Shown one piece after another: positions 37,101 through 40,100 of a stretch of 64,000 nt of DNA; within the stretch, counting starts at the first letter, position 1, and the number at the start of each line of letters is the position of its first letter. A program made the translations under genes and the position numbers. Origin of the DNA: Paralichthys olivaceus (Eukaryota > Chordata > Actinopteri > Pleuronectiformes > Paralichthyidae); contig NC_091110.1 of assembly GCF_024713975.1 (NCBI RefSeq), forward strand, positions 2,925,001 through 2,989,000, written 5' to 3'. The notes beneath the pieces were generated by a model. The model did no database searches and had not been told where the DNA came from. It saw only the letters and a list, made by a program, of their open reading frames with translations.

Positions 37101-40100
37101 CTTTTGCATCTCTTTGTGGAAGCGTGTTCACATTTCTAACTAGAAATGTGAACAGTTCCTTCCCACAGAGCCTCTCGTCTAAAGGTCCTGGGCCCTTGCA
37201 TATAGAATAAAACCTCACCATCCATAAATTATAAAAAACTGATACGAAAGTGTGACAGACCACTGAAATGAAACCTGTAGGAAACCAGGAATTTTCATAT
37301 ATCCTCACACATTACTGTATATGCCACCATATACCATATTATGTACATATAGTGTATATTACATAATATATAAGTGTCTACACATTAAAATCTTCTGCAT
37401 AAGACATCAGCTGCTGCCTGAGTTCTCCTTTCACCAGCTTCCAGAAAACTTCCATAACAAATAATTTCTTCAAGAACTGAGGATTAGGAAAACCAAAGGC
37501 AGCAGCACACACAATAGGAACACATTCTGATACAAACACATGAGAAGCAGAGACAGACAGATGGGACTTAAAAAATATACATGGGCTTTTTTGCCATTTG
37601 TTTACTTGAGAGAGACCAAACACAGCTGCTTGCCTTTTTGCAGCCGTCATGTCTTTCCTGCTCAGATGCTGACGTAACGACAATCTGACAAACATCTTTA
37701 GAGCACAAGCACGCACAGGGACAAGAGGGTTGTCTGTAAAGTTAATTCTTATGGTGATTGATTTTTGCCTGTAGTCATTAATCATTCCATCACAGTGGCT
37801 CAAAAACAGCTGCAGCAGAGTCATTGTGTCACCCTCTGCCCTCTCCCTCAATTAGAGAATATTTGGCTTGTGAACAGGAGGTGAGACATATTAAAGGGGC
37901 TAAATAACAAGGGCAGATACTCTGCAACTCACAGTACCACCCATAAATCTCCCTATACTCTGATACAGTGCAGTAAACAGCGAAGAGTCAATTGAAATAT
38001 AACCTTAAACCATTTTTACAAACCACAGAGGGTTTGGCAAAAGGTCAAATGCCACTCGATCCTTTCATGCCAAATTTATTGCTAGCAGGGGAGCTCCTGG
38101 TTCCACGAACAGCTACATTTTGGAAAATACATTTATTTATTTCCCACAGTGAGTTAGATGAGGAGATCAGTAAGTATTGACATCAAGCCTGCATTCTAAA
38201 TCTAGAAGTTAGCTCGCAGAGGGACTTGTAGAATAACACCAACTACATGAAACACAACTGCTGATACATAAATGAGACATGCTTCATGAGAGGAGATACA
38301 GTTGTTCACAAATAAATTCAATCTTAACACTTACAATAATATTATGATGTGTTATATATTGCTTATGTATTGGTTGTTTACTAAAGGTTATAATAAAGTG
38401 TTATTTCTGTCATTTATGAGATTTTACTCATTATTTTTCCTACTGGAAATAATTACAATATGTCTGACAGCATTTAAAAACCACAAAGAAATCCAAGCTA
38501 TGTCACTTCATCTGTACGGCACAATACACTGTGGATTTTAGTGAATTAATAAAAGTTTCTATCTAATTATAATTATGTGTAATCCAAATATACCTAATTT
38601 GGAGCAATTCAATCAACATTAGATGTAACTTAACATCACACTGATGCCATTTCTGGCAGGAAAAAGTCTGCTGCGCTTGGCACCACACGCAACAGTGATG
38701 TCATGGTGCACAACAAGAGTACACTTCTACATCACTGCAGCACAGTGAGAAGATCAACTGGAAACAAGGTTATCAGCTGATGCAAGTTTCTCATCCAATT
38801 AAAACTTCTATGGAAAAAAACACAAGAATAAAATACTTATGATCAAATGCATGCACAATCTATTTAATCAGAAAGGCACATATACATATACACACACATG
38901 CATGTAATGATACATCAGGCTCACATGACAAGCACAGACATGCTGGGTTCAAGTATATTTCGCTGCACTTACCAGCCGCCAGAAACTAGTGCAAAAGTCA
39001 GACGCAGACAAATACAACTATAAATCCCTTCCAACGCACGCACAGACGCAAACCCACACAGACACGCACAGACCAACACAGACACACACGCCTGCATTTG
39101 ACTCACCTTGAGGTCTCTATGTACCACCCCCATCTGATGACAGTGGAGCACGGCCTCCAGGATCTGCTGGATGCAATGACTGCATGCAAACAGCAGGGGG
39201 AGCAGGTTAGTCTGAACACATTCAACCCCCAGCAGCATCCATGCAGAGGCAGCCACCTCTCATAACAGGCCACACACGCACACACACACACACACACAAC
39301 CATGTATAGAGTGAACCTGTCTGTGAAGGGAGAAGGTGTACGCTATTTTCTCTTTTCAAGACAGGGCCAAACATGGCAGGCAGTGTAGGAGTGTGCCGCA
39401 GATCCATGTGGGAGACCCTGTGTCTAACCTGCATCCCTGGGTAATTTATTCAGGAACGGCAGTAACGCCGCCTTCGACAAAAAGATTTAGCAGGTTTCCA
39501 AGCATCTGAGGTAAGATGCTGCTCTGCTGTTACTCCACTAAACTCTACTCAGTTTCACTCGCTCACACACTCGCTCCTTCGCTCGCTCTTGTCTGACCCA
39601 GAGGAAATCACTCCTCTAGTACAGACCGTCTAAAATAGTGCAACATGAGTCCCAGAAGCAAAACCTGAAGACAGGCATACACACAAAGAGAGACAGACGG
39701 ACGGACAGACGGACAGACAGCAGGCACAGGCACTTTGTTTTTAACTCACAAGCAATTAAACACAAGCATGTAAAGAAACAACCCTTGTGCAGAGGGTGCA
39801 GGGCAGTGCAACACTATGAGGCACACACACACCTTGAGGTCCCTGTGCACTATTTCATGTTGGTGGGTGTAAGACACACAGTCTAGAATCTGATGTATAC
39901 AGTGACTGTGGAGACAAAACAACAACGTGAGGAGCAGAGAAGGAACACGAGAAGGTAAGGAAGCATAAAGACAGTCATACAGAAAAGTCGAGGGAGAAGG
40001 GCAACATCTGACAGGAGGAGGATGTTTTTAGGAACATGTCAGAGGAGAAGAATAAAGAGTACGTTCACCCAAAAAAAACACATCTCCTGACTTATTTTTA

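Follow-up and report, generated by a model that had tools for sequence, protein, structure and literature searches.

Tandem exons 6a and 6b in the kinase domain of fish CaMKII beta, a probable remnant of an exon pair older than the CaMKII paralogues

The camk2b gene of Paralichthys olivaceus carries two tandem versions of exon 6, named 6a and 6b, each of which encodes helix E and the loop leading to the catalytic HRD motif. The reading that we favour, with a probability of roughly 0.85, is that they form a mutually exclusive pair descended from one tandem duplication in a single early CaMKII gene, that losses followed, and that 6b is probably repressed by an RBFOX-type protein. The stretch of DNA analysed, referred to as the window, comprises 64,000 nucleotides (C18:2925001-2989000) and contains the following parts of the gene:

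12915..53833, minus strand: camk2b coding region from the ATG to the last hub exon, with exons 1-12 and the hub found
43610..43675, minus strand: exon 5, the common upstream neighbour of the pair, ending at 43610
39833..39905, minus strand: exon 6a, 73 nt, gamma-like helix E and catalytic HRDLK, as read from its borders and translation
39107..39179, minus strand: exon 6b, 73 nt, with a peptide identical to that of solved kinases (3bhh, beta; 2vz6, alpha)
35899..36001, minus strand: exon 7, the common downstream neighbour of the pair, starting at 36001

Judged by its sequence, this minus-strand gene is CaMKII beta, with kinase, regulatory segment and hub. When exon 6 is masked, the best solved relative of its kinase part is beta 8t6k at 629.5 bits, with gamma 2v7o close at 625.9 bits. 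Upstream of camk2b, at 58998-59921 on the minus strand, lies a reading frame that encodes a CS domain (PF04969, E 1.8e-15) and that by synteny fits NUDCD3, a neighbour of CAMK2B in the human genome. A 157-codon open frame on the plus strand (7932-8405) has no Pfam match and is perhaps a piece of a mobile element. A crude KKRK pattern, used to look for exon v3N in the beta linker of the window, gave one lysine-rich chance run and no exon.

An earlier note on this DNA had described two tandem 73-nt exons, 653 nt apart and in the same phases, and the description proved right to the base. AG precedes and GT follows both exons, so that the splice sites are usable as claimed, and the positions given for the low end of exon 5 and the start of exon 7 were confirmed. 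The note was also correct in taking 6b for the ordinary alpha/beta sequence, the same peptide being present in solved beta and alpha kinases, and in placing 6a closer to gamma: 6a differs from the solved gamma kinase 2v7o at 6 of 25 residues and from 6b at 9 of 25. D135 is kept in both versions, as had been proposed, and HRDLK is unchanged between them. The first S of both 25-residue peptides is completed from exon 5; 44 of 73 bases and 15 of 24 residues are identical, and the nine differences fall at residues 117, 121, 122, 124-126 and 129-131. Reciprocal tblastn between 6a and 6b gives E = 8e-8. Among 12 kinase and regulatory exon positions tested (linker and hub exons were left out), only exon 6 has a second copy within the window at E < 1e-3.

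The same genome (588 Mb, 25 contigs) was searched for CaMKII exon 7, which yielded at least seven loci as best candidates. All seven were read between exons 5 and 7:

C18 (the window), beta: 6a and 6b, 653 nt apart
C4, beta: 6a and 6b, 3021 nt apart
C22, delta: 6a-type exon and 6b, 1347 nt apart
C8, delta: 6a-type exon only
C14, gamma: 6a-type exon only
C21, gamma: 6a-type exon only
C15, alpha: 6b only

Loci were named by their best solved relative with exon 6 masked (C15 alpha, C8 delta, C14 gamma and, on exons 3-8 only, C22 delta). C4 is assigned to beta on the strength of its 12 other exons, which show 94-100% identity with those of the window, and C21, the first half of which is ambiguous in gene assignment, is called gamma because it has residues of exons 7 and 11 in common with C14. 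The 6a type lies upstream of 6b in all three paired genes, and alpha, beta and delta have one and the same 6b peptide. In the alpha gene the intron before 6b measures 81 nt, compared with 3704 nt before 6a in the window, and may possibly be the scar of a 6a exon deleted along with its intron. Relics of the missing partner were sought in eight introns of the alpha, gamma and second delta genes, and none was convincing (best tblastn E 0.08). The 6a donors are off consensus in all three paired genes; those of delta C22 and beta C4 both read GTTAGTA. Among unpaired genes, the gamma 6a donors read GTGAGT and that of delta C8 GTTTGT, so the donor pattern is not a clean one.

Use of the two exons is constrained by the reading frame. 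Inclusion of 6a alone or of 6b alone keeps the camk2b kinase frame of the window open, and inclusion of both breaks it, as the note had predicted, with a stop at residue 158; omission of both leads to a stop at residue 128. Early stops on double inclusion and on double skipping are found alike in C18, C4 and C22. The two exons are thus adjacent, homologous, equal in length and phase and bounded by splice sites, and are unproductive when included or skipped together, which is the pattern of tandem mutually exclusive exons. The 6a exon occurs alone in protein models and 6b alone in solved beta kinases. Mutually exclusive use within the catalytic domain, which the earlier note had put forward, is probable, with good support from the frame, from conservation and from annotated isoforms. 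Exclusivity may not be absolute, since three protein models carry both exons. Two of these, P0001 and P0002 (Dunckerocampus), join a longer version of 6a with extra residues in frame to 6b, and represent either a kinase with both exons, which would be unusual, or a fault of annotation; the third, P0007, looks like a read-through model.

The relationships of the two exons point to an old origin. In a peptide tree, gamma joins all six beta 6a peptides given (support 98.4/94), and a second clade holds the 6b peptides of alpha, beta and delta (support 98/97). A DNA tree of ten exons likewise groups the four 6b copies (support 96.9/97) and rejects gene-by-gene duplication (AU 3.2e-4); both trees are built on 25 residues or 73 bases only. 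In the DNA tree delta 6a falls between 6b and the beta/gamma 6a group, so that it is taken for the orthologue of beta 6a by its position as well as by its sequence. The fly and delta exon reads ESVNHCH.NG.V. A delta-baited search returned the canonical delta exon in 107 of the 120 matches listed and the exact 6b peptide in the other 13 (mammals, turtles). Given that alpha, beta and delta do not differ in their 6b peptide and that gene-by-gene duplication is rejected by the trees, the pair is probably older than the four vertebrate CaMKII genes. The earlier note had treated 6a as an extra variant of the ordinary exon 6b, and this part of its account does not hold: the gamma exon is the one with which 6a groups, and the two copies are apparently older than the split of alpha, beta, gamma and delta.

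A younger origin would have 6a arise by a recent duplication of exon 6 in fish beta, followed by drift, with its likeness to gamma a matter of convergence. That the solved beta kinases 3bhh and 8t6k carry 6b, and that no mammal is found among the named 6a-baited matches listed, would suit such a history. However, forcing the beta exons together in the peptide tree costs 27.5 log units (AU 3.4e-5), so that a duplication confined to beta is rejected; beta 6a of catfish and percomorphs is 1 of 25 residues from gamma and 7-8 from beta 6b; and the pair recurs in delta C22, in the order found in beta and with the beta word at its 3' splice site. We regard a recent duplication as very improbable.

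An early duplication leaves it to be asked whether 6a has been maintained. Differences between 6a and 6b fall at 6/24, 5/24 and 18/24 of codon positions 1, 2 and 3, respectively (Fisher p = 3e-5). On this sequence pattern 6a is no decayed relic, codon positions 1 and 2 having been kept while position 3 is saturated, and the differences between the two copies bear the mark of purifying selection. Between the two beta genes (C18, C4), 6a has dN 0.13, dS 0.40 and dN/dS of about 0.33, with 5/24 residues different; 6b has dN 0 and dS 1.72, with 0/24 residues different. From these residue counts, 6a is under weaker constraint than 6b. The lower dS of 6a may reflect small numbers or a constraint on its silent sites.

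The 6a exon, which the earlier note had suggested looking for in other fish camk2b genes, is present in teleost gene models among the matches listed, in both beta ohnologs. A protein search baited with 6a gave a plain 6a-type exon in 117 of the 120 matches listed, the other three being P0001, P0002 and P0007, and in a second such search all 118 further listed matches were of the 6a type, many of them named 'beta 1'. The taxa extend from Paramormyrops and Scleropages (first list) and Megalops (second list) to percomorphs. Such 6a-baited listings cannot give the proportion of fishes without 6a, and the teleost gene models are probably mostly computer predictions. Echeneis has both kinds of beta with 6a (P0029, P0250), hence both teleost beta ohnologs keep the exon. 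One 540-aa 6a protein, P0075, derives from a contig of 3613 bases; the window gene spans about 41 kb, for which this contig is too short, so that P0075 is a spliced transcript or a processed copy.

These observations bear on a second alternative, in which both exons are real and 6a is a weakly used, near-neutral and unregulated relic kept by chance. It would account for the greater change in 6a than in 6b, and for the match of the window donors to the consensus, 8/9 for 6a and 9/9 for 6b. Against it, 6a has an open frame and usable splice borders in each beta gene of the genome, recurs in gene models from Scleropages and Megalops to percomorphs, and retains the dN/dS of about 0.33 noted above. 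Chance survival is accordingly improbable in our view, if less so than a recent duplication.

Possible signs of regulation lie near the acceptor of 6b, where three features of the 6a-6b intron are of interest:

39180..39192, minus strand: final bases of the intron preceding 6b, TGTTTGCATGCAG, in which UGCAUG overlaps the 3' splice site; common to both betas and the paired delta, absent from alpha
39206..39211, minus strand: ACTAAC, the likely 6b branch point; similar ACTAAY at -53 in C4 and -33 in C22
39240..39245, minus strand: a further TGCATG within the 6a-6b intron, with no counterpart seen at this position in C4 and C22

C18, C4 and C22 all have TGTTTGCATGCAG at the end of the intron preceding 6b, and the unpaired 6b of alpha C15 is without it. 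Apart from this 13-mer and its pieces, no word of at least 10 nt is common to all three 6a-6b introns. Beta C4 and delta C22, members of gene lineages that presumably split before jawed vertebrates radiated, have 16 identical bases at this intron end. TGCATG occurs in the last 16 nt of the acceptor in 3/3 paired 6b exons, 0/1 unpaired 6b and 1/46 others (P = 2e-4, for a motif chosen after it had been seen), in a count of 50 acceptors from the seven loci that includes at least four exon-5 acceptors (C15, C18, C21, C8) placed at an AG within the exon and a C22 exon-5 acceptor that may be off by two, the doubtful ones all being without the motif. The single other acceptor with TGCATG is that of exon 7 in the window, which is not common to C4. 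On the minus strand of the window the acceptors of 6b (39180-39188) and exon 7 (36002-36010) both end in TGCATGCAG, and the other beta gene has the 6b one only.

Broader measures were less specific. Within the window alone, two copies of TGCATG in the 6a-6b intron are not a significant enrichment (7% of simulated introns). The flank upstream of 6b, compared between beta C18 and C4, beats 200/200 shuffles, and an equal result was obtained for the flanks preceding exons 2, 5 and 9 and for the one following exon 8, so that the pair does not stand out by its intron flanks alone. The 6a flanks of the same two genes are not above shuffles (50/200 and 14/200 shuffles reach them).

UGCAUG is the RBFOX element. 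Here it is placed to act on 6b and is conserved across the paired genes, as would be looked for in the sequence of an RBFOX-regulated exon, and we infer that the choice between 6a and 6b is under RBFOX-type control. In the available part of one paper, mouse Camk2d is named among the shared splicing targets of RBFOX1 and QKI, with the exon not named (PMC10202634), and that of another describes an unannotated Rbfox-regulated cassette exon of Camk2g, with its position not given (PMC4801060).

It is quite conceivable, although we rate it somewhat below an even chance, that the pair is ancient and alternative and that the choice is made by other means, such as PTB, QKI acting at ACTAAC, splice-site strength or RNA pairing. 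The ACTAAC at 39206..39211 is what we take to be a QKI-type motif, and each of the three paired genes has ACTAAY close to its 6b branch point; the off-consensus 6a donors, too, are common to all three. The UGCAUG overlaps a splice site, so that its conservation could reflect another factor. The conserved word nevertheless centres on TGCATG and is absent from the unpaired 6b of alpha, which speaks for the RBFOX-type repression that we favour.

The favoured history would begin with one tandem duplication of exon 6 in an early vertebrate or chordate CaMKII gene, before the four-gene split. At its simplest it would comprise this one duplication and then at least three losses: the fish betas and one fish delta would have retained both exons, alpha 6b, and gamma and the second delta the 6a type. 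Each mRNA would carry one of the two exons, and mRNAs with both or neither would meet an early stop and be degraded. An RBFOX-type protein bound to the UGCAUG at the 3' splice site would repress 6b and lead to the use of 6a, probably in neurons, heart or muscle, where RBFOX is present. As a result, helix E and the loop to HRD in beta would take on either an alpha/beta-like or a gamma-like form, with 9/24 residues changed and D135 kept.

The effect of 6a is expected, from its sequence, to be a tuning of stability, docking or activation and not a loss of catalysis. Gamma, which has a 6a-type exon, is an active kinase, and by analogy the 6a form should be active as well. An AlphaFold model of the 6a protein, built from nine sequences, had a mean pLDDT of 34 and was not used.

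More broadly, we would give even odds to the proposal that what distinguishes the kinase domains of alpha, beta, gamma and delta near the catalytic loop is for the most part left over from a single ancestral pair of mutually exclusive exons, and that an RBFOX-type switch at the 6b acceptor has been kept since before the paralogues split. If this is true, what began as splice isoforms became separate genes through gene duplication, with the 6a type fixed in gamma and 6b in alpha, and an exon pair with TTTGCATGCAG before 6b is to be expected wherever the pair survives. CaMKII ranks among the most intensively studied kinases, and work on its splicing centres on the linker; here an exon switch beside the catalytic loop would be common to beta and delta, with alpha and gamma each frozen in one of its forms. 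Comparisons of isoforms, for example alpha with gamma, would then in part compare ancient splice variants, and the role of helix E in CaMKII becomes testable. With three paired and four unpaired loci in one genome, the family would offer a clean case of splice isoforms divided among duplicate genes.

Switches of this kind are known elsewhere. Exons 6a and 6b of JNK (MAPK8/9/10) are mutually exclusive homologous exons within the kinase domain, and FGFR2 IIIb/IIIc are mutually exclusive homologous exons with a UGCAUG-dependent choice. The likeness of both to CaMKII is one of principle only, the genes being unrelated and the exon a different one.

Within CaMKII itself, the known alternative exons change the linker and not the kinase. 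In the available part of one paper, variable exons v1-v7 are described for the linker and splicing of exons of other domains is called uncommon (Cook 2018, PMC5882894); exon v3N has been lost from the beta gene of mammals but persists in that of fish (PMC5882894). Linker and hub splicing and an alternative promoter are treated in several papers (PMC4801060, PMC10202634, PMC13196872, PMC11019858, PMC9120016, PMC9252440, PMC5882894), the available parts of which make no mention of an exon-6 switch.

The closest counterpart is in human CAMK2D, which the available part of one paper lists with four MXE clusters (Hatje 2017, PMC5740500), and for which a tandem-duplicated exon substitution has been shown on the kinase structure 6ayw beside the ATP site (Martinez-Gomez 2022, PMC9741552). 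The earlier note's view that the switch is undescribed thus needs amending: a kinase-domain exon substitution is already catalogued for human CAMK2D (PMC9741552), although no account was found for CAMK2B in the literature covered. The human event concerns the same gene family, and delta proteins exist with the canonical exon or with a 6b peptide identical to that of the window. Tetrapod delta proteins carry either peptide and fish delta C22 has both exons, and the human pair may be the same event. It differs in concerning delta and not beta, and its identity with exon 6 is our own surmise, as the available text gives no exon number; nor does that text discuss an origin before the paralogue split or the loss of a partner (PMC9741552). 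In a partial coverage of the literature, no account was found of the CAMK2B exon 6 pair or of its sharing between paralogues, so that the claim to novelty is a weak one. On the evidence of sequence, then, we would tentatively describe the 6a/6b switch as a known kind of event that is new in beta, and that brings with it a new account of how the CaMKII paralogues came to differ.
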